Source: Nocardioides silvaticus (GTDB lineage Bacteria; Actinomycetota; Actinomycetes; Propionibacteriales; Nocardioidaceae). Taken from it: DNA of 64,000 nucleotides. Position numbers and translations under genes: made by a program. This document shows, piece by piece, positions 17,510 through 33,413 of this stretch (position 1 is its first letter; every line of letters starts with the position of its first letter). Location of the stretch: positions 1 to 64,000 of the forward strand of contig NZ_QGDD01000013.1 of assembly GCF_003160695.1 (NCBI RefSeq), in the 5' to 3' direction. The notes below the pieces were generated by a model. That model was not told the DNA's origin. It did not search any database and was given only the letters and a program-made list of their open reading frames with translations.

Positions 17510-18079
17510 ATGAGCGCGAACCCCGACCTGCCCCACGTGGTCAACCGCGCTTTCGACGTGTCGCGTCGCGCGGGGTACGTCTCGTTCTGCCGCAACGAGA
17601 CCGGCCGGCTGCTGGCTGCGCTGGCTGCGACCCGCAACGGGATCATGGCCGAGTTCGGCACCGGCTGCGGCGTCGGCACCGCGTGGCTCCGCTCCGGCGT
17701 CCGCGGCACCCAGGCCCGCATCCTCACCGCCGAGCTCGATCCCGCGCTGGCCCGGGCGGCCGCCGAGATCTTCATCGACGACCCGCTCGTCGACGTGCTC
17801 ACCGCGGACTGGTCGACCCTCCGCGACAAGGGCCCCTACTCGCTGCTCTTCCTCGACTCCGAGCAGCCCAGCGAGGTGGGCGTCGACGCCATCGCCGACC
17901 TGGTCGAGCCGGGCGGCATCGTGGTGCTCGACAGCTTCTGGCCCTGCGAGCAGTGGCCCCCCGTCGTCGACGGCCGGGTCGACATCCTGCGCGAGCAGTG
18001 GCTCACCGACGAGCGGTTCACCGCCGTCGAGGTGATGGTCGCCAGCGACTCCTCGGTCGTGCTGGCCACCCGCCGCTAG
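17510..18079 (+). CDS. Class I SAM-dependent methyltransferase (O-methyltransferase-like)
   Basis: 189 residues. SAM motif I is [15 protein letters not shown] (about 46-60), the acidic end of strand 2 is LTAELD (about 73), and [11 protein letters not shown] then [11 protein letters not shown] follow the order of the catechol O-methyltransferase-like family. The substrate is unknown. It stands alone on the plus strand: leuB diverges upstream and a convergent operon end follows. AAGACT lies 6 nt before the ATG, a possible but weak -10 box; the region 17244-17509 holds no other feature that I can support. Confidence 0.85.
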
Positions 18080-18082
18080 CTC

Positions 18083-18130
18083 CGGTCGTCGAGTAGCCCG
18101 AGCGCGCAGCGCGAGGGCGTATCGAGACGC
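18083..18130. repeat. Interspersed repeat, family A, inverted copy
   Basis: CGGTCGTCGAGTAGCCCG...GGGCGTATCGAGACGC, the reverse complement of the units at 307-355 and 33330-33378 with a few changes. It fills the gap between two convergent gene ends (18079 and 18140) and could act as a U-less terminator hairpin. Confidence 0.8.
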
Positions 18131-18139
18131 CGTGCGCCG

Positions 18140-18946
18140 TCAGTGGACCTCGCCGGGCGCGGCCTTCCGGACGATGATCCGGCTCCACGCACCGAGGTAG
18201 ACCCGGTCGTCGGGGCCGAGCTCCTTCTTCTCCCCCGGGGTCAGCGGCGTCGTGGGCAGCGGGCCGAGCGGACCGCCGACGTAGGTGCCGTTGGACGAGC
18301 CGAGGTCCTCGACCCACCAGCGGGTGCCGTCGGTCGTGAGCTGGCAGTGCCGCCGGCTGATGCCGTTGTCGGTGGCCAGGTCGATGTCGGGGTGGATGTT
18401 GCGGCTGCGCGACTGGCGGCCGACGAGGACCGACGTCGTCCGCAGGGGTACGACGACCGGCACGCCCGCGGACGGGAGCGGGTCGCTCGAGTCCTGGTCG
18501 GCGTACCAGTCCGGATCGATCCAGACCTCGGCCACCCACGAGCTGCTCAGCGGCGGTGCGATCGACGGCTGCGCATCGGCGGTCGGCGGGTCGAGGTCGG
18601 GCGGGCCCGCGGCCGCCGGCGCGTCGCCCGCGGCTGCGCCAGGGTCCGGCCCCGCCGGCGCGCCGAGGTCCAGCGAGGAGGGCGCGCGGGGCGGCTGCCC
18701 CGTGGTGAAGTCGTAGCCGCACGCCTCGCAGAACAGGGCGTTGTCCGGGTTGACCGCCGAGCAGTTGGGGCAGGTCGTGCCGGCCGGGCCGGGGGCCGGC
18801 GGGTCGGCCGGCTGGTCGGGGGCCGAGGGCGGCGGCGACGGCGTGCCGCTCGACGGCGTCGCCGGCCCGGCGTCGGTGATGGGCAGGCCGCAGACGTCGC
18901 AGTAGTCGTCGGCGGTCGAGTCGTGGCCCGAGGGACAGGTAGGCAA
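18140..18946 (-). CDS. FHA-domain protein with N-terminal zinc ribbons
   Basis: 268 residues, last gene of the pknG operon. Two Cys-rich ribbons come first: MPTCPSGHDSTADDYCDVCG (Cys4, 17, 20) and Cys59/62/73/76. A Pro/Ala linker follows, then an FHA domain (about 170-260) with Gly176-Arg177, SRRH (197-200) and NGT (219-221), the phosphothreonine-reading residues. It is therefore a candidate reader of phosphorylation by the kinase encoded upstream. It lacks the N-terminal ETTSVF phospho-motif of GarA, so I do not call it GarA. The start is TTG at 18946, with GGGAG 8 nt upstream, 2 nt past the VWA stop. Confidence 0.9.
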   Translation of the reverse strand: MPTCPSGHDSTADDYCDVCGLPITDAGPATPSSGTPSPPPSAPDQPADPPAPGPAGTTCPNCSAVNPDNALFCEACGYDFTTGQPPRAPSSLDLGAPAGPDPGAAAGDAPAAAGPPDLDPPTADAQPSIAPPLSSSWVAEVWIDPDWYADQDSSDPLPSAGVPVVVPLRTTSVLVGRQSRSRNIHPDIDLATDNGISRRHCQLTTDGTRWWVEDLGSSNGTYVGGPLGPLPTTPLTPGEKKELGPDDRVYLGAWSRIIVRKAAPGEVH

Positions 18947-18948
18947 GG

Positions 18949-20241
18949 TCAGCTCCCGGTCGGGTCCTTGCGGACCCGGGTCGTCTTCGTCGACGCGGTG
19001 TCCAGCGCCATCTCGTCGGCCTTGTCGACCGCGCGCTTGAGCCGCACCGTCCCGTCCGCCTCGTTCTCGACGTCGACGACCTTGCGCAGCTTCGACGTCG
19101 CCTCGTCGTTGCCGGTCTCTGCGGCGAGCTGCACCGCGCGGCCGAGCTTGGTCGTCGCGGTCGCCTCGTCGCCGGCGGCCTTGGCAGCCAGGCCCTCCTG
19201 GATCATCGCCGCGAGCTCGGTCTGCCCGGTGTAGTGGGCCACCTGCTGGTCGATGCGCGTGGTCAGCTCGGAGTTGTTGGACCAGGTGGCCTTGATCAGT
19301 CCCTGGGTCACGGCGTTCTCGCCGAGCGCCAGCTGCACCCGCGCCGCGAGCTGCTCCTGGCCGATCGCCTTGGCGGCGACCCGCACCGCGACGTGGTAGT
19401 CGCGTGACTCGTCGGCCCAGGCACCCGTCGGGTAGTCGCGGGTCAGCGGGTTGACCGCGGTGCCGCGGTCGGTGAGGTCCTCGAGCGTCGGCGCGACCTG
19501 GCGCACGAAGAGGACCTGCGCACCCTGCGGCGTCCAGATCCGCAGCTTGGCGTCGGCCACGCCGCGGGCCATCGAGGCGCGCATGATCTCCTGGAACTGC
19601 GCGCGCATCTGGTCCGGCCTCGGGATGATGTCGACGGTGCCGAGCAGGGCCTGCGCGATCCGCCGGATCTCCGCGACCTGCCAGTCGGTGCCGGCGCCGC
19701 GGCAGTCGCACTGGAAGTAGCCGGTCGCGCGGTTGATCGCCTCGTCGAGGCGGCCGGGGCGCTCCCGGTTCTCACCGTCGGTGAGCAGCAGCGCGTGGCG
19801 CTGGGTCACCTGCGGCACCGACGCGAAGATCTGCCCCGCGAGGTCGAGCCAGGTCGAGATCGCCGTACCGCCGCTGCCGACGAACCGGCCGATCGCCGCG
19901 GACGCCTCCTGGCGGGTCTGGGCGTTCATCTGGACCAGGGCCGGCCCGCTGGTCACGGGCGGGTAGGCCAGCATCGCCCGGTCGGCGCCGGCGATCACCG
20001 CGAACCAGGTGCCGTCGACGATCTCGGCCAGCGCCGCCTGGGCCGCGTCCTTGGCCGCCGCCATCGTCGCCGGGCCCATCGAGCCCGACGTGTCGACGAT
20101 GATGATCTCGCCGGCGTCGCCCGAGCCGGACTGGCCGGCCGTGCCGGCGCCCGTGCAGGAGATCGTCACGATCGCGTTGACGTCGGTCCCGCCGTCGGGC
20201 AGGAACTCGTTCTGGAAGACGGCGGTGGTGAACTCAGCCAT
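18949..20241 (-). CDS. VWA-domain protein
   Basis: 430 residues. After a short beta-rich N-terminus, a von Willebrand A domain (about 45-215) carries an intact MIDAS: Asp50-x-Ser52-x-Ser54 (VDTSGSM), Thr126 (GGTAIS) and Asp155 (LLTDGEN). A beta-type region and a helical C-terminus (about 350-430) follow. There is no signal peptide, so it is presumably cytosolic. VWA proteins with AAA partners commonly act in metal-dependent assembly, and a CbbX-type AAA is in the same operon. Its ATG overlaps the phosphatase stop by 8 bp. Confidence 0.9.
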   Translation of the reverse strand: MAEFTTAVFQNEFLPDGGTDVNAIVTISCTGAGTAGQSGSGDAGEIIIVDTSGSMGPATMAAAKDAAQAALAEIVDGTWFAVIAGADRAMLAYPPVTSGPALVQMNAQTRQEASAAIGRFVGSGGTAISTWLDLAGQIFASVPQVTQRHALLLTDGENRERPGRLDEAINRATGYFQCDCRGAGTDWQVAEIRRIAQALLGTVDIIPRPDQMRAQFQEIMRASMARGVADAKLRIWTPQGAQVLFVRQVAPTLEDLTDRGTAVNPLTRDYPTGAWADESRDYHVAVRVAAKAIGQEQLAARVQLALGENAVTQGLIKATWSNNSELTTRIDQQVAHYTGQTELAAMIQEGLAAKAAGDEATATTKLGRAVQLAAETGNDEATSKLRKVVDVENEADGTVRLKRAVDKADEMALDTASTKTTRVRKDPTGS

Positions 20242-21556
20242 CGGTCGGGGCTTCCTCTCCTGCTGCGTCGGTTCCTGCTGCGTCGGCGGCGGGTGCGGCC
20301 GGTGCTTCGGGGGTCGCTGCCGGCGGTGCCGGGGTACCGGCATTCTGCCCCGCCGGTGGTGGCGGCGGTACGGCGGGCGCGGACGGCGTCGCCGTCTCGA
20401 CCTCCGCCGGCGGCGGCGGCGGGGGCGGAGGAGGCGGCGGGGGCGCCAGCGGCCCCAGGCGCGCCAGGCTGACCGTGATGTTGTCGTGCCCGCCGGAGGC
20501 GTTGGCGAAGTCGACGAGCCTCAGCGCGAGGGTCCCCGGGTCGGCCGGTCCGACCGCCCGGACCTGGGCCTGCAGCGCGGACGGCTCGGAGGCGTAGTTC
20601 CACAACCCGTCGGAGCAGACGAGCAGCCAGCCGGCGCCGCTCACGTCGAGCGTGGACACCGTCGGCACGAAGTCCTGGGAGTCGCGACCCAGCCACTTGG
20701 TGATCGCGTGCGCGAACTCGCCCGTCTCCGCCTCCTCCTTCGCCACACCCGAGGCGATCTGCTGCTGCGCGACCGAGTCGTCGACGGTCAGCTGCACCGC
20801 CTCGCCCTCGTCGGGGATCCAGTAGGCGCGCGAGTCGCCGATCTGGGCCGCGCTGATCCGTGTGCCCTCGAGGACCGCGACCGTGAACGTCGCCGACGCC
20901 GGGTTCGGCGAGTCCGGGTCGGTCACCGCGATGATCGCGGTGTTGGCGGCGGCGGCCGCGTCGGCGAACACCTTGGCGACGGCCGCGTCCCGGCTCTGCG
21001 GGGTTCCCATCCCCGCCGGGAGCGGGGTGCGCAGCACCTCCCGCGCGGCACGGGCACCGGCCAGCGAGGCGACGTCGGAGTCGATCGAGCTCGAGACGCC
21101 GTCCATGACCACCAGCACGGCCCGCGAGCCCTGCTCCTCGCCGGCGAGCAGCGCCATCGCGTCCTCGTTGCGGTTCTTGCGGACGCCCTTGTCGCACACG
21201 CCGGCCACCCAGGCGGCCGGCTCCTCGCGGAAGTGGTCGCGCTCGCTCGGCGCCTTGGTGCCGCACGACATGCAGTAGAGGTCGGGGCCGACCTCTCCCC
21301 CGCACGCCGCGCACGGCCGCCGGCCGGGGTCGGGCGGCGGGTCGGGCAGCGCGTCGTGCGGCCGTCGGGTGGGCGCGCTGATCGGCGCGTCCCCGAGCGG
21401 ATCGGTCGTGTCGTCGGCGGGCACCATCGTCGGCGGCGTCAGCTCGGTCGAGGCAGCGGCGGCGCCCGTCTGCGCGCCGCACGACTCGCAGAACCGTGCT
21501 CCGGCTGCCAGCGGCGCACCGCAGGAGGGGCAGGCGACGTCCGGGGTCGCGGTCAT
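20234..21556 (-). CDS. PP2C-type Ser/Thr protein phosphatase with zinc ribbons and poly-proline tail
   Basis: 440 residues. Two N-terminal ribbons (Cys9/12/23/26 and Cys82/85/95/98) precede a PP2C domain (about 113-368). Metal-binding and catalytic motifs are present: KNRNED (127-132), VVMDGVS (149-155), GDSRAY (240-245), CSDGLW (314-319) and GGHDN (355-359). The C-terminus (about 370-440) is low-complexity with an unbroken run of 12 prolines (372-383), which should need EF-P for translation. It probably dephosphorylates targets of PknG or PknG itself. ATGA overlap with pknG gives a fixed kinase/phosphatase pair. Confidence 0.94.
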   Translation of the reverse strand: MTATPDVACPSCGAPLAAGARFCESCGAQTGAAAASTELTPPTMVPADDTTDPLGDAPISAPTRRPHDALPDPPPDPGRRPCAACGGEVGPDLYCMSCGTKAPSERDHFREEPAAWVAGVCDKGVRKNRNEDAMALLAGEEQGSRAVLVVMDGVSSSIDSDVASLAGARAAREVLRTPLPAGMGTPQSRDAAVAKVFADAAAAANTAIIAVTDPDSPNPASATFTVAVLEGTRISAAQIGDSRAYWIPDEGEAVQLTVDDSVAQQQIASGVAKEEAETGEFAHAITKWLGRDSQDFVPTVSTLDVSGAGWLLVCSDGLWNYASEPSALQAQVRAVGPADPGTLALRLVDFANASGGHDNITVSLARLGPLAPPPPPPPPPPPPAEVETATPSAPAVPPPPPAGQNAGTPAPPAATPEAPAAPAADAAGTDAAGEEAPTDG

Positions 21557-23952
21557 GTGAGGCTCCAGTTCCGTACGGCGTTCGCCTGGTTGACCAGGTC
21601 CACGCGCTCGTCGAGCTCGTGGGCGTCGCGGGCCAGCAGCCGCAAGGCGTTCTCCAGCCCGTTCCTGATGTCGGTCTCGGACGCCGGCACCGAGCCGATG
21701 TGGGCGCCCTTGCCCGGCGGGTTCTTCGTCACGACCGGCAGTGCCTCCTTGAGGATCCGTACGGTGTAGCGCTGGCGGGTGGGCCCGTCGACCGACGAGC
21801 TCTCGATGGTGCGCAGCGCCTGGTCGAGGACGGTCAGGTCCATCGCGCTGCCCGCGAGGAGCACCTCGGCCCGCTGCTGGCGGCTCTCGGTGTAGCCGCG
21901 GCTGGTGGTCGGCACCAGGTCGAGCGCGGCGACGGCACCGGCCGTGTCGCGGCGCTCGGCACGCACCCGGGCCATGCCGAAAGCGGCAGGGGCGACGTAC
22001 GTCGCGTCGGTGGCGACGCAGGTCTGGTACAGGCTCTCGGCCACCTCCGGCTGCCCACCCTTCTCGCACGCGAACGCCAGCGCCAGCTTCGGGGCGAGCT
22101 CGCCGGGGACCTGCTGGTAGACGGCGTTGAACGTCGCCTTCGCGACCTCCCAGTCCTGCTGCTGGACGGCCGCGAGACCCTCCATCCACAGCGCTCGCCA
22201 CTCCCACGGGTCGGCCGAGAGCAGGTTGCCGGCGTAGCTCTTCGCGGCCGACGCCTCCTTGAGCTCGAGTGCCGCCTTGCAGCGGGCCAGCCACACTTCC
22301 GCGCTGTCCTCGGGAGCCGCGTCGAGGTCCTTGAGCCGCTGGCGCGGGTCGTCGGTGCCGATGGTCGACAGCCAGCCGTGCTGCGGGTCGGTGGTGTCCT
22401 CGCGCAGCGCGGGCAGCTGGTCCCACGACGTGATCGGACGGGCTGTCGCCGGCGACTCGAACAGGACCGACGCGGCAGAGGTGAGCGCCGTGCCCTGACG
22501 CTTGCGCGCGACCACCTCGCGCAGCACGCCGAGCAGCTGGGTGCGCAGCTCGTCGACGGAGGCGAACCGGTCGGCCGGGTCGGGAGCGCAGGACTTGGCG
22601 ACCAAGTGGTAGAGCGAGTCGTACTGCTGGAACAGCGGCGTCGAGTCCACCGGCGGCAGGCTGTGCAGGTAGGTGCCCTGATAGCCGCGGAACTCCATCG
22701 TCAGCACCAGCAGGGTGCGGCCGATCGTGTAGATGTCGGAGGCCACCGACGGGCCGACCTCGGCCACCTCCGGCGCCTGGTAGCCGACCGTGCCGTAGAT
22801 CGCCGACTCGTCGTCGTCGACCCGGCGGACACCGCCCAGGTCGATCAGCTTCATGGCGTCGCCGACCTGGATCATGTTGTCGGGCTTGAAGTCGCAGTAG
22901 ACGAGCCCGAGGTCGTGGAGGTACTGGAACGCGGGCAGCAGCTCGAGGATGTAGGCGAGCGCCTGGTCGACGGGCAGCGGGTCGTAGGCGCCGTTGTTGG
23001 CCCGCATCCGGTCCTTGAGGATCTGCTTGAGCGACTTGCCGCCGACGTACTCCATGACGATGTAGCCGGCGCCCTCGTGGGTCACGAAGTTGTAGATCTC
23101 GACGATCGCCGGGTGCTCGACCTGGGCCAGGAACTGCTGCTCGGCGATCGCCGCCGCGAGCGCGTCGGGGTCGCCGGAGTTGAGCAGGCCCTTGAGCACG
23201 ACCCACCGGTTGGACACGTTGCGGTCGCGGGCGAGGTAGATCCAGCCGAGGCCGCCGTGCGCGAGTGCGCCCGCCACCTCGTACTGGCCGGCGACCAGGT
23301 CGCCCTGCTGCAGCTTCGGCGTGAACGAGAACGCCTGGCCGCAGTTGGCGCAGAACCCCTCGGTGCGGCCGGGCTTGCCGTCGATGCTGCGACCGACCTT
23401 GTTGCCGCACTTGGCGCAGCTGCGCTTGTCCTCGGGCACCTCGGCGTGGGCCATGATCGCCTTCGCGGCGTCGACCGGCGGTGCCGGCGGCACCGAGGTG
23501 AGCCCGGCGCCGAGCCGGGCCGCACGCATCCGCTGGGAGCCGGTGCGGGTGCGCCGGGTGGAGCCGGTGCCGGTCGAGCCGGCTCGCCTGGAGCCGATGG
23601 CGGCCGACTGCACCCGGGCCGACGAGGTCGCCACCGAGGCGCCTCCGTGGGACACCGGCTCCGCCTCCTGCGCGACGACCGGCGCGTCGGCGGCGGTGCC
23701 GCAGATGTCGCAGTACCCGTCGAGGATCTTGCCCGAGCAGCCCGGCTGGCGGCACGGCGTGCCGTTGGGCACGGCGGCTGCCGGGGCGGGGCCGGTGGCC
23801 GGCGCACCGACGGTCGCGGTCGGGATGCCGGTCGTCGAGCCTGCGCCACCGGCGGTCGAGCCGGTGGCGGCCCCGGGCGACCCGCAGACGTCGCAGTAGC
23901 CGTCGAGGATGTTGCCGGTGCAGCCCGGCTGGGTGCAGGTGTTCGCAGTCAC
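21553..23952 (-). CDS. pknG: Serine/threonine protein kinase PknG
   Basis: 799 residues, longer than mycobacterial PknG (about 750) because of the N-terminus. Two copies of a C-x4-C-TG/SG-x-ILDGYC-D-x-CG ribbon (Cys6-23 and Cys67-84) are followed by a basic linker. The PknG rubredoxin-like module comes next (Cys179/182 and Cys201/204). The kinase domain (about 222-490) has AHGGLGWIYLARDRN, Lys254, the non-RD catalytic loop VYCDFKPDN (Asp354) and DLG (Asp371). The C-terminal third is TPR-like (FPGELAPKLALA is here VPGELAPKLALA). In mycobacteria PknG phosphorylates GarA to regulate glutamate metabolism. GTG start overlaps the upstream stop (GTGA); soluble, cytosolic. Confidence 0.96.
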   Translation of the reverse strand: MTANTCTQPGCTGNILDGYCDVCGSPGAATGSTAGGAGSTTGIPTATVGAPATGPAPAAAVPNGTPCRQPGCSGKILDGYCDICGTAADAPVVAQEAEPVSHGGASVATSSARVQSAAIGSRRAGSTGTGSTRRTRTGSQRMRAARLGAGLTSVPPAPPVDAAKAIMAHAEVPEDKRSCAKCGNKVGRSIDGKPGRTEGFCANCGQAFSFTPKLQQGDLVAGQYEVAGALAHGGLGWIYLARDRNVSNRWVVLKGLLNSGDPDALAAAIAEQQFLAQVEHPAIVEIYNFVTHEGAGYIVMEYVGGKSLKQILKDRMRANNGAYDPLPVDQALAYILELLPAFQYLHDLGLVYCDFKPDNMIQVGDAMKLIDLGGVRRVDDDESAIYGTVGYQAPEVAEVGPSVASDIYTIGRTLLVLTMEFRGYQGTYLHSLPPVDSTPLFQQYDSLYHLVAKSCAPDPADRFASVDELRTQLLGVLREVVARKRQGTALTSAASVLFESPATARPITSWDQLPALREDTTDPQHGWLSTIGTDDPRQRLKDLDAAPEDSAEVWLARCKAALELKEASAAKSYAGNLLSADPWEWRALWMEGLAAVQQQDWEVAKATFNAVYQQVPGELAPKLALAFACEKGGQPEVAESLYQTCVATDATYVAPAAFGMARVRAERRDTAGAVAALDLVPTTSRGYTESRQQRAEVLLAGSAMDLTVLDQALRTIESSSVDGPTRQRYTVRILKEALPVVTKNPPGKGAHIGSVPASETDIRNGLENALRLLARDAHELDERVDLVNQANAVRNWSLT

Positions 23953-25061
23953 TGCGCGGTCTCCTTCTGAAGCCAGGTCTGGTAGGTCGCGACCAGCTGC
24001 TGGGCGACGGCCATCGGGGCCGGGGTGCGGGCGAGCACGGCGCGTGCCTGCCGCTCGCTCTCGACCAGGTCGCGGTTGCCGGCCACGCCTTGCGCGGTGG
24101 CCTTGGCGACGTAGGCGTCGAGCAGGGCGACCAGCTCGGTGTGCTGGGCCAGCGCGTCGGCGTACTTGTGCTGCGCGAACTCGAGCGCCTGCGAGACCCG
24201 GTCGAGCTTCTTGAGGTACTCGTCGATGGCGTCCGGCGTGTTGGGGACCGGGCCGAGGGCGTCGACGTCGGGCACGGCGAAGTGCGGCGCGGTGTCGACG
24301 GTCGCCACGCACTGCGCCGCGAGCTTCTCCAGCGCCTGCTCGCGCGCCTCGAGGTCCGCTCGGAGCTCGCGCGCCGACTCCAGCTTGGAGCGGGCGTCAC
24401 GGCGCCGGGCGTTGCCGACGATGAGGTCGCGCTCGAACGTCGTCGCCTCGACCTCGAGCGGCCCCAGCATGCCGCCGACGTCGGCCCCGCGCTCCGACCG
24501 CTCGGTGAGCTGGTCGAGCCGCAGCATCAGCCCGGCCAGGGTCCGCGCGGCCGCCTCCTGCGACGCCGGCGGCTCGAGCCCGACCTGGTCGCGGATCCGC
24601 TCCAGCTGCGCGCGCAGGTCCCGGATCCGCGCCACCTGCTCGGTGGCGTCGTAGGTCAGCGCGAGCTTGGTGCGCAGCTGGCCCGTGAGCGCGTCGTTGA
24701 GACGGCACGCCTCCGGGAGCGACACCGCCAGCCCGCCGGGCATCCCGGACGCGCCGTCGAGCCGACCCCAGATCAGGGTCGAGATCCGCTCCCGCTCCTG
24801 CTGGAGCACCCGGCCGCCGTCCCACGTCGCGAAGACCAGCTGGTAGCGGTCGTGGATCGCCTTCCACATCGCCAGCACCAGCTGCATGTCCCCCGCCAGC
24901 TCCTCCCCCCGCCCGGCAGCGATCGCCGCGGCGTCGAGCTCTCTCAGCTCGTCGTCGCGCGTGCGCAGCCACCCGTCCAGCTCGACGACGTAGCGCTGGA
25001 TGAGCGCCGGCTCGATGGCCTCGCCGAGCTTGCCGGGTGCGGAGGGGGCGGTCGCGGTCAT
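23949..25061 (-). CDS. Helical / coiled-coil protein of the pknG operon, unknown function
   Basis: 370 residues, almost entirely predicted alpha-helix with heptad-like stretches such as RDLRAQLERIRDQVGLEPPA and ELRADLEAREQALEKLAAQC. It has no signal peptide, membrane segment or recognised domain. The ATG at 25061 follows the glnH stop by 16 bp (TAGGAG near the stop may serve as ribosome-binding site), and its stop overlaps the pknG start. Strict linkage suggests a scaffold or adaptor for the kinase; that is inference only. Confidence 0.8.
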   Translation of the reverse strand: MTATAPSAPGKLGEAIEPALIQRYVVELDGWLRTRDDELRELDAAAIAAGRGEELAGDMQLVLAMWKAIHDRYQLVFATWDGGRVLQQERERISTLIWGRLDGASGMPGGLAVSLPEACRLNDALTGQLRTKLALTYDATEQVARIRDLRAQLERIRDQVGLEPPASQEAAARTLAGLMLRLDQLTERSERGADVGGMLGPLEVEATTFERDLIVGNARRRDARSKLESARELRADLEAREQALEKLAAQCVATVDTAPHFAVPDVDALGPVPNTPDAIDEYLKKLDRVSQALEFAQHKYADALAQHTELVALLDAYVAKATAQGVAGNRDLVESERQARAVLARTPAPMAVAQQLVATYQTWLQKETAQ

Positions 25062-25077
25062 GGACTGGTCGTCACTC

Positions 25078-26055
25078 CTACCGGTACGGCAGGGTCGGAG
25101 GCGGCTGCACGGCGTCGGCACCGTTCAAGGCGCTTTTGAGCCACCTGGTGTAGATCGGCTGCCACTGGTCGTTCTCGCGCATCGACTCCAACACGCCGTT
25201 GACGAAGGCCACCAGCTCGGTGTCGTCCTTGTTGGCACCGATCCCGTAGGGCTCGTCGTTGAGGGGAGCCTGCTCCGGGACGACGGCGTAGGGGTCCTGG
25301 GCTGCGAGGCCGGCGAGCACCGTGTCGTCACCGGTGATGGCGTCGACCTCGCCGCGCTGGAACTTCACGAGGCACCCCGTGTGGTTGGCGGCCGGCTCGA
25401 TGATCGCTTCCTCCTCGGCTTCCTTGATGTTGTCGAGGCTGGTCGAGCCGGTAGGCGCGCAGACGCGCAGCCCAGCGAGGTCCGACGGGTCCTGGTACTC
25501 GCCGTTGCCCTCGTCGCCGTCGTCCAGCGACCGGCTCACGAGCACCTTCTGGGTGGCGGCGTAGTAGACCTGCGAGAACGCGATCTGCTCCCACCGGGCG
25601 CAGTTGATCGTGAAGTTCCGGATGACCAGGTCGACCGCTTCCTCCTCGAGGAGCGGGATCCGATCCGCGGCCGTGATCACGCGCAGCTCGAGGTTGCGAC
25701 CGGTCTCGAAGTCGGAGCCGAAGATGGCCCGGCCGATGGCCTTGGCGAACTCGATGTCGAATCCCTCGATGCGGTTGCCCTCGTCGGGGTTCTCCGAGGC
25801 CATCAGGTAGGTGTCGGCCGAGACCCCGACGATGAGGCGGCCGCGGCTCTCGATCTCGGCGACCTTGCCGGTGATCTCGTCACTCGGCTCGTACGACGCG
25901 AAGTCGCTGTCCGAGGGGGTGCAGGTCGAGGCCGCGGGAGCGCTGCTCGGGGCGGCCTCGGGCTCCTCCGGCAACGGAGTCTCGTCGTAGCCGCAGCCGG
26001 CGAGGAGCGCAGCCATCGCACTCATCGCGGCCAGACCATTTGTCACGCGGCTCAT
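25078..26055 (-). CDS. glnH: GlnH-like solute-binding lipoprotein (amino-acid sensor)
   Basis: 325 residues. A lipoprotein signal peptide ends at LLAGC (Cys21), followed by a Pro/Ala-rich spacer and a family 3 extracellular solute-binding domain (about 65-310) with GRLIVGVSADTYLMA, GFDIEFAKAIGRAIFG and VDLVIRNFTINCARWEQIAF. No ABC permease or ATPase is nearby. In mycobacteria GlnH binds aspartate/glutamate outside the membrane and signals through GlnX to PknG. The gene order here is the same, so a sensor role is more likely than uptake. The start overlaps the glnX stop (ATGA). Confidence 0.92.
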   Translation of the reverse strand: MSRVTNGLAAMSAMAALLAGCGYDETPLPEEPEAAPSSAPAASTCTPSDSDFASYEPSDEITGKVAEIESRGRLIVGVSADTYLMASENPDEGNRIEGFDIEFAKAIGRAIFGSDFETGRNLELRVITAADRIPLLEEEAVDLVIRNFTINCARWEQIAFSQVYYAATQKVLVSRSLDDGDEGNGEYQDPSDLAGLRVCAPTGSTSLDNIKEAEEEAIIEPAANHTGCLVKFQRGEVDAITGDDTVLAGLAAQDPYAVVPEQAPLNDEPYGIGANKDDTELVAFVNGVLESMRENDQWQPIYTRWLKSALNGADAVQPPPTLPYR

Positions 26056-27392
26056 GCGTACTCCTTCCGCCGGGCGCCGATTCCTCGCGCCACCGCGATC
26101 GCCGACGCGCATCCGAGCAGCACCGTCAGGAGGCTGCCTACGAGCGCGAGCGACCGTCCCGCTCGGAGCTCCTCGCTGACCGTTGCTCCGTTCTCCTGCA
26201 CCAAGCCCTTCACGACGCCGTCGAACGCGTCGAAGGCGGCAGTGGAGTTCTGCCCGCCGGGCGCGTTCTCGGCGCCGGTCGCGATCTGGATAGCGGGGCC
26301 GCGGCGGTCCTCGTCGTCGTACTTGACGATGCTCGCGTGCGCGTTGGCGTAGCTCCGCCACTCGTCGAGCACGATCCGGTCGCCCTTCTCCTCGACGATC
26401 TCGGCCGCGGCGATCCACGGGTCCTCGTAGCGCGGTCCGGAGCCCCGGTTGACGAGTCGCAGGCTCTCGTTGGCCTTGGCGTCGTTGCCGGCCGTCCGCA
26501 CGGCTGCCTGATCGACCGCCATCCGCAGCTCACCGGCGAGCAGGTCGTCGTTCTGGCTGTCGGCACGCCAGGCAGCGATCGCGGCAACGATTGTCGTCAC
26601 GACGACCACGATCATCGCGACAGCGATACCGACGTTCACGTAGCGGCGGAACCGTCCGGCGAGCAGGATGCTGATCCACACCAGCACGGCGACGCTCGCC
26701 AGCCCGATGAGGAGCAGCCAGATCGGGTGCTGCCCGCCCATCGAGTCCTCGGCCCGCTCGGTGTTCGCGTCGACGAGGTTCGTCAGGATCGGCAGGGCGT
26801 CGGCGCGGAGGTTCGCGCTGGCCCCGCTCAGGTACTCCTTGCCCACCGGGTAGCCCTGTCTGAGGTTGGCGCGAGCCTCGGCGATCGCCGTCGCGTAGTC
26901 GTTGACCGCGACGTTGAGGGCGGCGAGCGCCTTCTCGTCCGCCGGCTGCGCCTCGGCCGCCGACGCGATCTCACCGAGGACGTCATCCAGCGCTTGGTCG
27001 TACTCCTCGTCGCGCGACGCGATCTCCGCCGGATCGAGGTTGCCACCGCTGACGGCGAGGTTGGTCGCGATCGCATCCACCCTCAGGAGGTTGGACTGGA
27101 TCTCCTGCACCCTGACCAGCTGCTCGGTGTCGTCGGCCGCACGGCCGTCGGACTGGTAGGACAGGAACTGGACGAGCCCGCTGGCGAGGCCGAACAGGAG
27201 GACGGCCGCCATGCCGATGACCTGCAGGCGGTTGAGGAGCGTGGGGGTGTTCTCCACACCGACGCCCACCGGCTTGCCGGTGGGCGCGGCCCAGGAGCGC
27301 TTGGGTTTGGCGTTCGGTGGCGCTTGTGGGGCCGGCGCCGGCTGAGCCGCCGGGGTCGCCGGGGGCGGCGGCGCGGCAGCGGACTGGCTCAT
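26052..27392 (-). CDS. glnX: GlnX-like transmembrane signal transducer
   Basis: 446 residues. A Pro/Ala-rich cytoplasmic N-terminus (1-50) leads to four hydrophobic segments: near 55-75 (VIGMAAVLLFGLASGLVQFL), 225-250, 255-280 and 418-440. A long helical extracytoplasmic region (about 77-222) between the first two resembles a four-helix sensor domain, and a second lies between the third and fourth. This topology and the position between AAA/glnH and pknG match mycobacterial GlnX, which couples GlnH to PknG. No kinase or HAMP motif is evident to me. Start and stop both overlap neighbours by ATGA. Confidence 0.85.
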   Translation of the reverse strand: MSQSAAAPPPPATPAAQPAPAPQAPPNAKPKRSWAAPTGKPVGVGVENTPTLLNRLQVIGMAAVLLFGLASGLVQFLSYQSDGRAADDTEQLVRVQEIQSNLLRVDAIATNLAVSGGNLDPAEIASRDEEYDQALDDVLGEIASAAEAQPADEKALAALNVAVNDYATAIAEARANLRQGYPVGKEYLSGASANLRADALPILTNLVDANTERAEDSMGGQHPIWLLLIGLASVAVLVWISILLAGRFRRYVNVGIAVAMIVVVVTTIVAAIAAWRADSQNDDLLAGELRMAVDQAAVRTAGNDAKANESLRLVNRGSGPRYEDPWIAAAEIVEEKGDRIVLDEWRSYANAHASIVKYDDEDRRGPAIQIATGAENAPGGQNSTAAFDAFDGVVKGLVQENGATVSEELRAGRSLALVGSLLTVLLGCASAIAVARGIGARRKEYA

Positions 27393-29002
27393 GAGGGCTC
27401 CTCTTCGGGCTCGGCAGGAGAGAGTACGTCGACCGGCTCGGCCGGGGGCGCGTCGGCCGGGGGCAGCAGGGTGCCGTCCTCGGCGACGACCGGCTCCTCC
27501 TCGTCGGCGCTGGGCGGCACCAGGTCGTCGGCCTCGAGCGAGCGCAGCTGCTCCACCGTCGGCTCCTCGATGTCGCGCAGCCGCCATGCGTGGTGACCGA
27601 TCGCGGCCTCGAGCATGTTGCGCACGTAGCGCGCGTTGCCGAACGACGGCCCGCGCGGGACGTCGGCGAGGATCTCGCGGAGACGTTGGACCACCGGCTC
27701 CCCCGCGTCGTAGTCGGCGCCCTTCGCCATCTGCTCGAAGATCGCCACCAGCTCGTCGTCGCTGTAGTTCGCGAACTCGATGTGCGTGCGGAACCGGCTC
27801 TCGAGGCCGGGGTTCTCGGCGATGAAGACCGCCATCGGCAGCGGGTAGCCGGCGACGATGACCACCAGGTCGTCGCGCTTGTCCTCCATCTCCTTGACCA
27901 GCGTGTCGATGGCTTCCTTGCCGTACTGGTCGCCGGAGAGCGCGTACGCCTCGTCGATGAACAGCACCCCGCCCTCGGCGGACTTCACGACGTCGGCGGT
28001 CTTCTGCGCGGTCTGACCGAGGTAGCCCGCCACCAGCTCCGACCGGTCGCACTCGACCAGCTGCCCCTTCGAGAGCAGCCCGAGCGCACGGTAGATGCCG
28101 GCGACCAGCCGCGCGACCGTCGTCTTGCCGGTGCCGGGGTTGCCGTTGAAGACCAGGTGCCGGGTGATCGTCGGGCTCTCCAGCCCGGCCTTCTTCCGCA
28201 GCCCCTCCACCCGCAGCACGGCGGCCTGCCGGTGGATCTCGTCCTTGACGTTCTTCAGCCCGATCAGCGCGTCCAGCTCCGCCAGCAGCTCCTCAACCGT
28301 TTTCGTCGGTTCTGGATCAGCCTGAGCTTGAGCCGACCCGTCGGAAACCTCTGGCGCCGTCGCGGCTTCGTCGCGCTTCTCTACGGTCTGTGCGCCGGAG
28401 GTTTGCGACGTGTCGGCGTCGTCGGGCGCGTCCGGCGTGGACGGTGTGTGCGACGGCGGCGTGAGGCCCAGGCCAGCTCCGCGATTCATCGCCTCCAGCT
28501 GCTTCTGCACCTGGTCACCCATCCGTCGCACCTGGTCGAGCAGCTCGTCGCCGACGCCGGGGACGGGCTCGCGGGTGGGGAGGTCGAAGGCACCGGGTGC
28601 GCCGGCTGCCGGCCGGGTCGGCGCGCCGGACTGGGCGGCGAGGATCGTGGCGGCGGCGCCGCGGGCGTCGGGGCCCGGCTGGCCGAGCGTCTGCGCCGCC
28701 ACCGCGACGTCGGAGAGGGCGGCGGCGTAGTCGGCGGCGTGCGCCGACTTCTCCAGCAGCAGCTGGTTCATCAGCGGCGTCGGGCCGCCGCGGAACCGGT
28801 TGCCCTGCTTGGCGGCGAGGAAGAAGTCCTCGGTCGCGCCGGGCTTCCCGACCTGTTCGCACCAGTCGACGAAGGCGCCCTTGGAGCGCTCGGAGACCGT
28901 GGCGGCCAGCGCTTCGCCCTCCGCGCGGGCCGCGGTCTCGTCGGCACCCGCGGTGCGGGCGACGCCGGCCAGCGCGTCGAGGGCCTCGGACAGAGTCGTC
29001 AT
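27389..29002 (-). CDS. CbbX/SpoVK-type AAA+ ATPase
   Basis: 537 residues. A helical N-terminal region (1-170) is followed by an acidic, Ser/Thr/Asp-rich linker (about 180-235) and an AAA module (about 236-500). Walker A is GNPGTGKT (287-294), the pore loop is AGYLGQTA (325-332), Walker B is VLFIDEAY (346-353), and NPGLESRFRTHIEF supplies the arginine fingers. CbbX-type ATPases form hexamers that remodel target proteins. In this operon the target may be TelA, VWA or another subunit; this is inferred. ATG 29002 overlaps the upstream gene's stop; its own stop overlaps glnX. Confidence 0.92.
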   Translation of the reverse strand: MTTLSEALDALAGVARTAGADETAARAEGEALAATVSERSKGAFVDWCEQVGKPGATEDFFLAAKQGNRFRGGPTPLMNQLLLEKSAHAADYAAALSDVAVAAQTLGQPGPDARGAAATILAAQSGAPTRPAAGAPGAFDLPTREPVPGVGDELLDQVRRMGDQVQKQLEAMNRGAGLGLTPPSHTPSTPDAPDDADTSQTSGAQTVEKRDEAATAPEVSDGSAQAQADPEPTKTVEELLAELDALIGLKNVKDEIHRQAAVLRVEGLRKKAGLESPTITRHLVFNGNPGTGKTTVARLVAGIYRALGLLSKGQLVECDRSELVAGYLGQTAQKTADVVKSAEGGVLFIDEAYALSGDQYGKEAIDTLVKEMEDKRDDLVVIVAGYPLPMAVFIAENPGLESRFRTHIEFANYSDDELVAIFEQMAKGADYDAGEPVVQRLREILADVPRGPSFGNARYVRNMLEAAIGHHAWRLRDIEEPTVEQLRSLEADDLVPPSADEEEPVVAEDGTLLPPADAPPAEPVDVLSPAEPEEEPS

Positions 29003-29520
29003 GGTGTTCCCAGGTTGAGGTCGGGGCCACCGGTCGAGGAGTGGCCGAACTTGGCTTCGAGGAAGCGCCCGTGGGCGATCAGCGCCTGCGCGTCACCCAG
29101 GTTGGCGGCGTCGAAGATCTTGTCCATCGTCACGCCGAGCAGCTCGAGCTGTTCGATGAGCACCATCAGCGAGGTCTTGTTGCCGTCGATGGGCCGGGTG
29201 TCGGCCCATTCCCGCGGGAGTCGCAGGTAGCCGCCGAGCGCCTCGGGCAGGTAGTCGGTCGCGGTCGCCATCAGCGAGTAGCCGTCCTGGCTGCCCAGCC
29301 CCAGGTCGTTGAGCCGCGGGAGCGTCTGGTGGATGGTGCGCGCGATCTTCACCACCCGCGAGGTCACCACCGGCGGTGCGTTGCCCTCACGGCACATCGC
29401 GTTGACGCGGTTGAGCGCCGCCAGGATGTCGTTGTCGGTCGGCGGGGGCGGCGCGACGTACTCGGTCCCGGCGTCGTCGCCCTTGCCGCGGACCTTGCGG
29501 AACCACGACCCAAGGCCCAC
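28999..29520 (-). CDS. Hypothetical protein of the pknG operon (173 aa)
   Basis: Begins MGLGSWFRKVRGKGDDAG, has a PPPP stretch near 24-27 and then a helical domain (about 30-155, DNDILAALNRVNAMCREG...). No recognised motif, signal peptide or membrane helix. It is co-encoded with TelA (3-nt gap) and the AAA protein (ATGA overlap), so it is presumably a partner of one of them. GTG start at 29520 follows GACGG closely, so translation is probably coupled to telA. Confidence 0.8.
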   Translation of the reverse strand: MGLGSWFRKVRGKGDDAGTEYVAPPPPTDNDILAALNRVNAMCREGNAPPVVTSRVVKIARTIHQTLPRLNDLGLGSQDGYSLMATATDYLPEALGGYLRLPREWADTRPIDGNKTSLMVLIEQLELLGVTMDKIFDAANLGDAQALIAHGRFLEAKFGHSSTGGPDLNLGTP

Positions 29521-29523
29521 CCG

Positions 29524-30753
29524 TCAGCCCTGGATGTCGAGGGTGCCGGCGGCGTTCCGCTGGTCGTGCTGCTGGACCCGCTCGAGGTAGGACTTGGACT
29601 TCTCGACCTCGGCCTCGAGCACACCGATGGTCGTCGACATGTTGTCGAGCGCCTTCGACTTGAACTCGTCGATGGAGTCCATGGTCGCGTAGATGTTCGC
29701 GAACGCGGCCTGCAGCTGCTCGATCCCGATGGTCGACGACGCTGCCTGCTCCTGGATCGCCGCGGAGTTCTCCTTGAGCATCTCCGAGGTCTTCTGGATC
29801 AGGTTCGACGTCGTGGTGTTGAGCGCCGTGATCTGGTCGAGCACCAGCTTCTGGTTGCTCAGGGCCTGCGCCACGATGACGGCCGTGCGTAGCGCGGAGA
29901 TCGTCGTGGTGGTGGCGCGGTCGACGCCCTTGATGAGCTCGATGTTGTTCTTGATGATGATGTCGATCGCCAGGTAGGCCTGGATCGACACCGCGAGCTG
30001 GGTCAGCAGGTCCTGGTGCTTCTGCCGCACGTAGAAGAGCACGTCCTGGCTGAGCGTCTTGGCGCCCTCGGGGTCGGACAGCTCCATCTCCGCGATCTTC
30101 GCCGACAGCTTCGCGTCGAGCCGCTCCGCGACGTAGATGTACTGGTTGAGCCGGCCCATCGTCGCCCAGAGGTTCGTCTTCTCCAGGTTGAGCGCGACGT
30201 TGTCGCGGGTGAGCTCGTCCTGGCCGCTGCGCAGGTGGTGCAGGATCCCGTTGAGCTGGCTCTGGGAGGACTGGTACTTGCGGAAGTAGTCCTCGATCTT
30301 GTCGTTGAAGGGCAGCTTGTCCCACCACTTCTTCGCACCGGTCGCCTGGCCCGGGTCGAGGTCCTCGATCGTGCGGCGCAGCTCGAGCAGGGTCTTGCCC
30401 ACGTCGGAGCCCTGCGCGATGCCGCCCTTCTTCAGCGCCTGCACCGGCTTGTCGAGCATCCGGTTGGACGTCTCGGCGGCCTTGCGGATGTCGGCGTCGC
30501 CCATCGTGCGGACGTTCTCTGCCTGGGCCGCGAAGCCCGGGCTGCCGATCTTCTCGGTGGTGAGTGCGTCGAGGAAGCTGTCGACCTTCGAGTCCAGCTC
30601 CGGCACCATCGCGGCGTCGACCTGGGGCGCCATCTTCGGCGCCGCCGTCGCCGCGACGGGCTGGGGCGGCTCCGGGGCCGTCAGGGTCAGCACGGGCTCG
30701 GGCGGGGCGAGCGGGCTCGGCTCGGGGGCGGTAGCGGAACCATCGGTGGTCAT
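29524..30753 (-). CDS. telA: TelA-family (toxic anion resistance) protein
   Basis: 409 residues. A Pro/Ala-rich N-terminus (1-50) precedes a long helical domain typical of TelA/YaaN (DIRKAAETSNRMLDKPVQAL ... LWATMGRLNQYIYVAERLDA ... VRQKHQDLLTQLAVSIQAYL). It is soluble and has no membrane segment. The family name comes from tellurite-resistance plasmids, but chromosomal members take part in broader envelope or stress responses; the biochemical role is unknown. It is the first gene of a ten-gene operon. The ATG at 30753 is 7 nt after TAGGCT, so the operon mRNA is probably leaderless. Confidence 0.93.
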   Translation of the reverse strand: MTTDGSATAPEPSPLAPPEPVLTLTAPEPPQPVAATAAPKMAPQVDAAMVPELDSKVDSFLDALTTEKIGSPGFAAQAENVRTMGDADIRKAAETSNRMLDKPVQALKKGGIAQGSDVGKTLLELRRTIEDLDPGQATGAKKWWDKLPFNDKIEDYFRKYQSSQSQLNGILHHLRSGQDELTRDNVALNLEKTNLWATMGRLNQYIYVAERLDAKLSAKIAEMELSDPEGAKTLSQDVLFYVRQKHQDLLTQLAVSIQAYLAIDIIIKNNIELIKGVDRATTTTISALRTAVIVAQALSNQKLVLDQITALNTTTSNLIQKTSEMLKENSAAIQEQAASSTIGIEQLQAAFANIYATMDSIDEFKSKALDNMSTTIGVLEAEVEKSKSYLERVQQHDQRNAAGTLDIQG

Positions 30754-30760
30754 GCCGCTG

Positions 30761-30766
30761 AGCCTA
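30761..30766 (-). promoter_or_regulatory. -10 box of the telA-pknG operon
   Basis: TAGGCT on the minus strand, 7 nt before the telA ATG. I see no convincing -35 element, which may mean activator or alternative sigma dependence. The next genes in the operon have no comparable gaps for a second promoter except the 16 bp at 25062-25077. Confidence 0.6.
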
Positions 30767-30820
30767 TCCAGTCATCCCACCTCGCACACCGGGGAAATCC
30801 AGGACCTCACCCCGAGGGTT

Positions 30821-30970
30821 TCAGCGGTCTAGACCACGTGCCCAGTGCCGGGTGTCGAGCCCGCGCCCGCTCGTGGCGGGAGGGCGGAAGTCGTGCGGGG
30901 TGAACCGGGAGCGCGGGACCGAGCGCGGGGCGTCCAGCCAGCTGACGATGCGGTTGAAGCGATTGCTCAT
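30821..30970 (-). CDS. Small basic protein (49 aa) coupled to yczE
   Basis: Starts MSNRFNRIVSWLDAPRSVPR and ends GLDTRHWARGLDR. It is rich in Arg and Trp and has no membrane segment. Its ATG overlaps the stop of the YczE-like gene (ATGA), which is the main evidence that it is translated. Function unknown. Confidence 0.45.
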   Translation of the reverse strand: MSNRFNRIVSWLDAPRSVPRSRFTPHDFRPPATSGRGLDTRHWARGLDR

Positions 30971-31680
30971 GACGAGACCTCCGTCTCGGGGGTGGTGGTT
31001 GCGGTGGAGGGAACGGTGACGTCGACGACGCACCAGGGCAGGAAGAGCTGGGTGAGCGGCCCGATGCCGAGCGCGTAGAGCACGGTGCCGGCACCGGCCA
31101 CGCCGCCGAGGACGAGGCCGACGAGGACGACCGCCACCTCGAGCAGCGTGCGGACCAGCCGCAGCGAGAGCCCGGTACGACGGTGCAGGCCGGTCATCAG
31201 CCCGTCCCGCGGGCCGCGACCGAGCTGGGCGCCGATGTAGAGGCCCGAGGCGATGCCGCACAGCACGACCCCGCCGACCATCAGCGCGACCCGCGCCGCC
31301 AACCCGTGCGGCGCCTCGAGCACGGCCAGGGTCGCGTCCGCGGACAGGCCGACGAGCAGCGCGTTGCCCACGGTGCCGATGCCCGGCTTCTCCCGCAGCG
31401 GGACCCACAGGAGCAGCACCACGAAGCTCATCACGACGACCGCCTGCCCGAACGTCATCGGCAGGTGTTGGATCAGGCCGGTGTGGAGCACGTCCCACGG
31501 CGCCAGGCCGACGTCGCCGCGCACCATGAGGGCCAGGCTGACGCCGTACAGGACCAGCCCGACGAACAGCTGCGGGAGCCGACGGCCCAGCCGGCCGGCC
31601 CGCAGCTGGGCCACCGGGCCGAGGTCGGCCAGGATCGGGGCCGGGCGGCGGTCGGCCGTCGTGGCGGTCAGGGTCGTCAT
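30967..31680 (-). CDS. yczE: YczE/YitT-like integral membrane protein
   Basis: 237 residues with five or six membrane helices (LFVGLVLYGVSLALMV near 38-53; AVVVMSFVVLLLWVPL near 80-95; ALMVGGVVLCGIASGLYIG; LLEVAVVLVGLVLGGVAGAG). The motif GDVGLAPWDVLHTGL and the second LGRGPRDGLMTGL repeat are characteristic of the YczE family. It is divergent from a MocR regulator, the same arrangement as yczE-yczR in Bacillus. The transported substrate is unknown. The 61-bp gap holds interleaved inverted repeats. Confidence 0.85.
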   Translation of the reverse strand: MTTLTATTADRRPAPILADLGPVAQLRAGRLGRRLPQLFVGLVLYGVSLALMVRGDVGLAPWDVLHTGLIQHLPMTFGQAVVVMSFVVLLLWVPLREKPGIGTVGNALLVGLSADATLAVLEAPHGLAARVALMVGGVVLCGIASGLYIGAQLGRGPRDGLMTGLHRRTGLSLRLVRTLLEVAVVLVGLVLGGVAGAGTVLYALGIGPLTQLFLPWCVVDVTVPSTATTTPETEVSS

Positions 31681-31697
31681 GCATCAAGGATCCCGAG

Positions 31698-31728
31698 AAG
31701 TGGCCTGTTCACAAATAGCCACTTGTGA
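31698..31728. promoter_or_regulatory. Interleaved inverted repeats in the yczE/MocR gap
   Basis: AAGTGGC (31698-31704) pairs with GCCACTT (31718-31724), and TCACAA (31709-31714) pairs with TTGTGA (31723-31728). Their place between the divergent starts suits a MocR operator controlling both genes. Confidence 0.6.
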
Positions 31729-31741
31729 TCTACTGGACTGC

Positions 31742-33199: not shown

Positions 33200-33206
33200 C
33201 CCCTCC

Positions 33207-33378
33207 GGTCGTCGAGGAGTAGAGCGAGCGCAGCGAGCCCCTGGTCGTCGAGGAGTAGAGCGAGCGCAGCGAGCGACGTATCGAGACGCCGCAAGCCGCC
33301 CATGGCCTCAGGTCGGCGGCCGGGCGCAGGCGTCTCGATACGCCCTCGCGCCAGAGCGCTCGGGCTACTCGACGACCG
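33207..33378. repeat. Cluster of family A repeats
   Basis: A 32-bp unit beginning GGTCGTCGAGGAGTAGAGCG occurs twice (33207-33238 and 33243-33274), followed by GACGTATCGAGACGCC. After about 40 bp a 49-bp copy in the other orientation follows (33330-33378). Complementary arms allow large hairpins. The cluster fills the 214-bp gap between the convergent ends of the MocR gene and serA; no gene is visible in it. Confidence 0.85.
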
Positions 33379-33413
33379 AGAGCGGCTCGGGCTACTCGAC
33401 GATCGATAGGGCG

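Follow-up and report, generated by a model that had tools for sequence, protein, structure and literature searches.

Most of what is known of the protein kinase PknG comes from its link to GarA/OdhI in mycobacteria and corynebacteria. According to the portions covered of the relevant papers, the PknG-GlnX-GlnH-GarA/OdhI system is established in these bacteria (PMC6069109, PMC8546545, PMC9769921); glnX and glnH are presented as operon partners of pknG in PMC6069109, and the word "phosphatase" does not occur in its main text. Another described phosphorylation system is the ArnA-ArnB switch of the archaeon Sulfolobus, which, as far as the covered portions of its literature go, is controlled by nutrients through the kinase ArnC and the phosphatase PP2A (PMC6509490, PMC7472852, PMC12852372); the C-terminal part of ArnB carries the phosphorylation, for example in IETTRR peptides, and is where the zinc-finger/FHA protein ArnA binds (PMC6509490, PMC12852372). 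No study linking PknG with TelA, or PknG with the archaeal ArnA/ArnB, was found among the open-licence papers, which were covered in part. Here, a 64,000-nucleotide stretch of the Nocardioides silvaticus genome (contig NZ_QGDD01000013.1, positions 1 to 64,000; the window) was analyzed, in which pknG belongs to a run of ten genes that includes glnX, glnH and telA.

The analysis revealed that this gene set extends the PknG system in a conserved way, and it is best understood as an Arn-like phospho-switch of bacteria, provided with a sensor and, in one clade, with a TelA arm. Since the set and its order recur in dozens of genomes, the association is more than chance, and conservation of the operon is near certain. 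The ten open reading frames are all on the minus strand, have intact frames and span positions 18140-30753; the initial annotation had described ten genes on one strand, and its positions and domain assignments were borne out by the frames and by Pfam. Its interpretation held for one conserved operon with sensor, kinase, phosphatase, reader, AAA ATPase and TelA, while its grouping of the VWA protein, GarA as the target and the sensing of Asp/Glu were not upheld. From telA to fha, the genes are:

29524-30753, minus strand: telA, TelA family protein of 409 amino acids, the sole copy found in the genome (Pfam PF05816, E 2.6e-92).
28999-29520, minus strand: u173, helical protein of 173 amino acids outside known families (no Pfam match; predicted local distance difference test score, pLDDT, of the model 78).
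27389-29002, minus strand: AAA ATPase of 537 amino acids, CbbX/SpoVK/EccA-like, with Walker A GNPGTGKTT and Walker B LFIDEAY (Pfam AAA and AAA_lid_6, NCBIfam).
26052-27392, minus strand: glnX, 446 amino acids, with four transmembrane-like segments (NCBIfam NF058618, E 9.8e-57; hydropathy).
25078-26055, minus strand: glnH, lipoprotein-like solute-binding protein of 325 amino acids (SBP_bac_3; best PDB match GlnH 6h2t, E 3e-52).
23949-25061, minus strand: helical protein of 370 amino acids, a long helical bundle (AlphaFold2 pLDDT 93, no clear fold match).
21553-23952, minus strand: pknG, 799 amino acids, with two N-terminal zinc ribbons, rubredoxin, kinase and TPR parts (Pfam PknG_rubred, Pkinase and PknG_TPR).
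20234-21556, minus strand: PP2C phosphatase of 440 amino acids with N-terminal zinc ribbon(s) (Pfam PP2C and zinc ribbon).
18949-20241, minus strand: VWA protein of 430 amino acids with intact metal ion-dependent adhesion site (D50, S52, S54, T126, D155; Pfam VWA and VWA_3_C).
18140-18946, minus strand: zinc-ribbon and FHA protein of 268 amino acids, with TTG start and phosphothreonine-site residues R177, S197 and N219 (Pfam).

The active-site motifs of the kinase, phosphatase, AAA, VWA and FHA proteins are all present, and the only PknG_TPR, TelA and VWA_3_C matches of the whole genome lie inside the operon.

Conservation was assessed on two sets of loci. The first comprised 60 Actinomycetota regions, none longer than 20 kb, that surround PknG_TPR matches and were hand-picked for family spread; they were searched with profiles of the ten operon proteins and scored for arrangement on the kinase strand; the second came from a scan with u173 and comprised the best 80 of 280 relatives, 58 of them on loci of at least 20 kb and 22 on shorter ones. 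The two sets share species (e.g. L070/L141), and their counts are not independent. All ten genes were found in order in ten regions of the first set, plus L070, where a run of N joins VWA and FHA; five regions were of the ten-gene type minus a detected glnH, and two were telA-bearing minus two genes (L077, which lacks vwa and fha, and L083, which lacks aaa and glnH). A seven-gene core, glnX-glnH-hel-pknG-pp2c-vwa-fha, was found in 11 regions (one of these, L075, is a ten-gene-type contig cut short), the core with glnX-glnH relocated behind it in four, glnX-glnH-pknG only in ten, and other combinations, such as contig ends, second copies or lone kinases, in 17. The loci of mycobacteria type retain three genes. 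L070 was tentatively taken for a nine-gene locus and then for a VWA-FHA fusion, and is neither, the run of N joining both frames; it and L141 are apparently one species fetched by two routes; in both, the tail of VWA is masked by the N run, as is the start of FHA in L070.

In the second set, telA, the AAA gene and pknG occur together in all 58 loci of at least 20 kb; u173 is accompanied by telA in all 80 loci save the short contig L195, and by pknG whenever the locus reaches 20 kb. These loci include Nocardioides, Pimelobacter, Kribbella, Microlunatus, Enemella, Intrasporangium, Terrabacter, Nostocoides and Mobilicoccus, the closest u173 relatives among the best 80 of 280 being from Nocardioides. 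FHA was undetected in 28 otherwise complete loci, and those inspected end inside VWA. Among 196 genomes of the order Propionibacteriales, PknG_TPR was found in 84 and u173 in 83: both in 82, PknG only in two (G416, G517), u173 only in one (G550, with a stop codon within u173) and neither in 111. In 81 of these 82 genomes a single contig carries both genes, at a distance of 4.5-8.3 kb, and in the other (G491) they are split over contigs. The initial annotation had named lack of conservation of telA, AAA and VWA beside pknG as its refutation; the neighbour analysis instead supports it, with telA and AAA beside pknG in 58/58 long loci and PknG present in 82/83 genomes with u173. The VWA gene, which it had assigned to a TelA/VWA/AAA module, instead accompanies PP2C and FHA beside pknG where telA is absent.

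Within the genus, the operon sits at a fixed site, bordered on one side by yczE, accompanied by serA and the MocR-like yczR, and on the other by a methyltransferase gene, accompanied by leuB; in the window, the flanking stretches are 17510-18076 and 30970-35000. At this site none of the ten genes was found in any of the 16 PknG-negative genomes of the genus (tblastn, E<=1e-8, 12 kb, located by leuB in all); the methyltransferase gene is kept in all 16 and yczE as well in 14, and in seven of those 14 the two are about 0.2 kb apart or less. The operon is present or absent as a unit in the genus. In PknG-negative relatives the site is empty or filled by other genes, which in four appeared by eye to be similar to ATP-binding cassette transporters. 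In a tree of 59 PknG proteins, built by a quick maximum-likelihood method and with arbitrary root, the 24 ten-gene rows formed one clade (Shimodaira-Hasegawa-like approximate likelihood ratio test 100) adjoining core-type rows, which fall in several lineages; of the 12 three-gene rows, ten form two separate branches, and the other two (L111 and L127, one of them a contig end) fall among core rows of family f93. The ten-gene form is found in Propionibacteriales, in Intrasporangiaceae/Dermatophilaceae and in one further family (f88, L109).

A single transcript for all ten genes is likely. The junctions from telA to fha measure +3, -4, -4, -4, +16, -4, -4, -8 and +2 bp; six of the nine are overlaps (five of 4 bp, one of 8 bp), where seven had been counted in the initial annotation, and the gaps of 2, 3 and 16 bp gave the same values on recount. 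Upstream of telA a candidate promoter element was noted:

30761-30766, minus strand: -10-like TAGGCT, putative leaderless promoter, 7 nucleotides 5' of the telA ATG, recurring in relatives.

TAG(G/T)CT occurs 6-7 nucleotides before the telA ATG in 12 of 20 sequences with a readable start (22 were examined, the window included) and is missing from the other eight, several of which have a GGAGG-like site instead. Among the relatives L129-L170, the 70 bases upstream of telA are of two types, leaderless-like with TAG(G/T)CT or with a leader and a GGAGG-like site. A generic sigma-70 scan of positions 17800-31100 returned no promoter, and terminator patterns were found at chance level only. The operon strand carries another Hanks-type kinase domain (window positions 13231-13818), some 4.3 kb beyond the 3' end of the operon.

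Three features bear on the likeness to the Arn switch:

23884-23937, minus strand: PknG zinc ribbon 1, CTQPGCTGNILDGYCDVC (motif read from the sequence).
23701-23754, minus strand: PknG zinc ribbon 2, CRQPGCSGKILDGYCDIC (motif read from the sequence).
18976-19002, minus strand: C-terminal threonine tail of the VWA protein, DTASTKTTR, amino acids 414-422, proposed phospho-acceptor (from conservation).

A profile of the FHA protein gave ArnA as top PDB matches (5a8i, E 5.7e-11; 8s05_C, E 1.1e-10), covering ribbon through FHA, and its residues G176, R177, S197 and N219 are invariant in 17 sequences. The VWA profile matches ArnB (8s05_A, E 1.5e-8) in the vWA domain only, while its full-length solved homologue is PDB 4fx5 (E 7e-108), with a match extending to the last residues. 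Via this homology a vWA domain, a beta-sandwich and a helix bundle are predicted for the operon VWA protein; 4FX5 (caci_2163) is described as sharing the three-part architecture of Sulfolobus vWA2 in the portion covered of PMC6509490, and in the covered portions of the Arn literature it is given neither a function nor a link to PknG. The adhesion-site residues are invariant in 20 aligned VWA sequences, in whose unfiltered alignment L413 and T420 do not vary either, and S417 and T418 reach a conservation of at least 90%; the C-terminal consensus is DEMxLDTxSTKT(T/V)R. Of 93 VWA frames, 18 have unreadable tails, as the locus ends inside 16 of them and a run of N interrupts two; STxT was counted at the tail only, five frames with a chance STxT elsewhere being excluded (three of them truncated where the locus ends, two masked by N), and is present in 71 of the 75 readable frames.

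The PknG ribbons follow the pattern CxQPGCxGxIxDGYCDxC, which is found in none of the sampled PknG proteins of mycobacteria type; PknG itself aligns with the solved PknG over residues 146-484 and 548-796. Ribbons are present in PknG of 37 of 40 loci with VWA and of 4 of 21 without it (Fisher p 1e-8, phylogeny ignored); among the latter four, L113 is at a contig end and L118 has only a fragmentary VWA match. By a permissive pattern, ribbons are also found in 102 of 103 PP2C frames and 38 of 39 FHA frames. Because the zinc finger of ArnA docks on ArnB (complex 8S05), these ribbons may, by analogy, be docking tags that bring the kinase, phosphatase and reader onto a VWA hub.

The helical protein, whose gene lies between glnH and pknG, matches no Pfam family at E<=0.01, and neither does u173; among 36 members of the helical protein no convincing family was found (best single match E 0.003, in one or a few members), and its AlphaFold2 model has no Foldseek match at E<=0.001. 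Comparison with FAK FAT, talin, vinculin and designed bundles (VIA, Z up to 10.3) did not rise above the generic level of helical bundles, and coiled-coil-like PDB matches of its profile (best E 1.4e-5) were taken as composition. In family f3, three loci (L092, L093, L094) have a second, distant PknG-like kinase beside VWA, with a zinc ribbon of its own after the ST(K/R)T tail; PP2C and FHA were undetected near that VWA.

These features can be assembled into a model in which one transcription unit encodes a phosphothreonine switch wired to a nutrient sensor, with an effector set in the ten-gene clade, a reading that we hold to have an even chance of being right. GlnH, outside the cell, and GlnX, in the membrane, would set PknG activity via its TPR domain, as proposed for mycobacteria and corynebacteria. 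PknG, mainly serving VWA rather than GarA, would dock on VWA by its zinc ribbons and phosphorylate threonines of the C-terminal tail (LDTxSTKTTR); the zinc-ribbon/FHA protein would then bind the phosphorylated tail tightly, the ribbon-bearing PP2C would reset it, and the helical protein would be the scaffold of the core. In the ten-gene clade the state of the switch would be conveyed to the CbbX-like AAA ATPase, which would remodel a TelA-u173 complex. We infer the binding, phosphorylation and output steps, and the phospho-switch mechanism appears about evenly balanced. A wider and more tentative proposal, to which somewhat less than even weight is given, is that in a large part of Actinomycetes PknG would have an ArnA-ArnB counterpart, not GarA, as its closest partner in the operon, with ribbons docking on the vWA hub and the kinase writing the tail; mycobacteria and corynebacteria would have retained the sensor and kinase only, and would use GarA, and one clade would have added the TelA-u173-AAA arm.

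Several observations weigh against the Arn-like switch. In the search of the PDB with the FHA profile, GarA (6.5e-10) nearly equals ArnA, and the genome's own GarA is likewise made of ribbon and FHA; in that with the VWA profile, unrelated vWA proteins outscore ArnB, with which similarity is confined to the vWA domain. The phospho-threonines of ArnB are within helices, whereas those proposed for the operon VWA are in an end tail, and, according to the authors in the covered portion of PMC12852372, the vWA architecture outside ArnAB is mostly uninvolved in multi-phosphorylation. The tail is a variant in three loci (L120, L123, L128) and absent in one (L124), in L092-L094 an ST(K/R)T tail is present with no FHA next to it, and three VWA-positive loci (L110, L112, L117) show no PknG ribbon. 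In favour of the switch, the FHA site is Ser-Arg in 18/18 loci with TT tails, and with other tails it is Ser-Arg in 5/17 and Ser-His in 12/17, but this pairing is largely one phylogenetic contrast and thus confounded; one locus labelled core in it is the cut-short contig L075. Ser-Arg is also found in ArnA and is tied by the authors, in the covered portion of their work, to doubly phosphorylated motifs. The association between ribbons and VWA is similarly confounded by phylogeny, with few independent changes, and the assignment of AAA, TelA and u173 as the output is a reasoned guess from their shared, overlapping gene order. That the operon works like ArnAB is well motivated, the sequence similarity to ArnB being that of the vWA domain.

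Of the sensor proteins, GlnX scores 193 bits against NF058618, whose family cut-off is 250. The side-chain contacts of GlnH with Asp/Glu are Arg147, Thr162 and Trp232 in the covered portion of PMC6069109; alignment to the solved GlnH showed that in the operon protein Arg147 is kept, Thr162 is replaced by Asn and Trp232 by His, while among the other contacts Arg169 and Asp250 are kept and Ser164 is Thr. Asn at position 162 and loss of Trp232 are common to all 12 GlnH proteins from telA-bearing loci of the order (window included); GlnH of L109, a ten-gene locus outside the order, has Thr at 162 and Leu at 232, and Trp232 is retained in all ten GlnH proteins of three-gene loci. Because two of the three side-chain contacts are lost, sensing of Asp/Glu, assumed in the initial annotation, is doubtful here; the ligand is probably an amino acid, not necessarily Asp/Glu. 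In L083, L084, L087, L108, L187, L201 and L205, which are Propionibacteriaceae-like loci from small genomes or belong to Mobilicoccus, glnH is not recognisable and glnX has strongly diverged; they retain kinase, phosphatase and telA, and vwa too, which is undetected only in L205. Their gene content suggests that the sensor was lost or replaced; amino-acid sensing is not essential to the set, the rest of which survives in several lineages in this form.

Ordinary GlnH-GlnX-PknG control of GarA and the tricarboxylic acid cycle, with PP2C acting on GarA and with VWA, FHA, TelA and AAA as accessory or hitchhiking genes, would be in keeping with the pathway established in mycobacteria and corynebacteria and with a PknG that keeps rubredoxin, kinase and TPR parts beside GlnX and GlnH. 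The genome also encodes a GarA/OdhI relative (G000:C11:621398-621754, L004) with an N-terminal zinc ribbon and, near the N-terminus, a (D/E)-x-T-x-T-I motif, reading DATATI where ETTS is expected; its persistence counts against the Arn-like reading, and PknG may still act on GarA. However, GarA does not track PknG across genomes: a relative is found in all 97 genomes of the order examined, PknG-bearing or not (0/97 above the strict family cut-off), whereas PknG is present in only 84 of 196. The position matching OdhI Thr14, which we take, on an alignment by eye, to be the PknG-type threonine, is Thr in one of seven PknG-positive genomes of the genus (Ser in three, Ala in three, this genome among the latter) and in three of nine PknG-negative ones (Ser in six). 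The next threonine is identical in all 16 GarA N-termini read, and GarA of the Kribbella-like, PknG-bearing family f79 reads DTAM at the Thr14-matching position. PknG and the accessory genes are inherited together, as one block. On these grounds GarA, named as the PknG target in the initial annotation, is a doubtful one here, and ordinary control of GarA is an unlikely reading of the operon.

A different emphasis would make the locus a stress or defence cassette of TelA type (against toxic anions, envelope or phage stress), triggered by PknG and either wholly present or wholly absent. TelA is associated with tellurite, antibiotic and phage resistance, and the whole unit does come and go at one fixed site in the genus; that site being fixed is unlike a mobile island, the telA-less core is widespread, and ten-gene loci follow a single clade that takes in several families. 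In a PADLOC scan of nine operon proteins (GlnH left out; E<=0.001), TelA, u173, GlnX, the helical protein, VWA and FHA were unmatched, PP2C had one weak match (E 4e-4), and the kinase and AAA matched models of several systems, read as superfamily-level. This explanation is thus improbable as well. That telA-u173-AAA and glnX-...-fha are two adjoining units, transcribed and acting apart, is suggested by the seven-gene core standing alone in other families; the overlap of 4 bp between AAA and glnX argues against it, as does the joint occurrence of the two parts in all 58 long u173 loci and in every u173 genome of the order save G550, and it appears very unlikely.

For the TelA arm itself, the PF05816 match covers the full length of TelA, a profile search of the PDB gave no solved relative at E<=1, and we know of no account of how the TelA family works. 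For u173, no convincing Pfam family was found in any of 19 members (best single match E 0.006), and its predicted model had no Foldseek match at E<=0.001. The AAA protein is below every equivalog cut-off, with 228 of 459, 278 of 423 and 230 of 467 bits in the CbbX, SpoVK and EccA group; its GYLGQT is taken by us, from CbbX biology, to be pore-loop-like. The customary partners of TelA are TerC/TerD and others; Pfam found neither TerC nor TerD among the ten operon proteins, the only part of the genome covered by that search.

The conservation of the ten genes suggests a role for PknG beyond the mycobacterial one. If many actinobacterial PknG loci carry a switch of vWA, FHA and PP2C, this wider role, the phosphatase and other substrates would be directly testable in harmless soil bacteria, with defined residues to mutate; TelA would be placed in a signalling context, beside two partners that are new to it, and a nutrient switch of phosphothreonine, vWA and FHA would exist in both bacteria and archaea.

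Compared with the described systems, the operon shares with mycobacterial and corynebacterial GlnX-GlnH-PknG the PknG architecture, a GlnX-family membrane protein, GlnH and their common operon; it differs in the extra helical, PP2C, VWA, FHA, telA, u173 and AAA genes, in the zinc ribbons of PknG, in the altered GlnH pocket and in a GarA that does not track PknG. The AAA ATPase belongs to the same subgroup as CbbX, SpoVK and EccA, with Walker motifs and AAA_lid_6; conversely, family matches span only about residues 213-494, the N-terminal part is different, and no rubisco, sporulation or ESX gene is among the ten (Pfam). Unlike usual TelA systems, with their Ter proteins, the operon ties TelA to PknG and u173. 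A full-length homologue of the operon VWA protein is Catenulispora acidiphila 4FX5. Finally, with Sulfolobus ArnA-ArnB-ArnC-PP2A it has in common a vWA protein with C-terminal threonines of TT(R) type, a zinc-finger/FHA partner, a Hanks kinase with a TPR-like part, a Ser/Thr phosphatase and a nutrient input; differently from the archaeal system, it is bacterial, it resembles ArnB at the vWA level only, its threonine tail is at the extreme C-terminus, PP2C takes the place of PP2A, and all components, sensor included, are encoded by a single operon.

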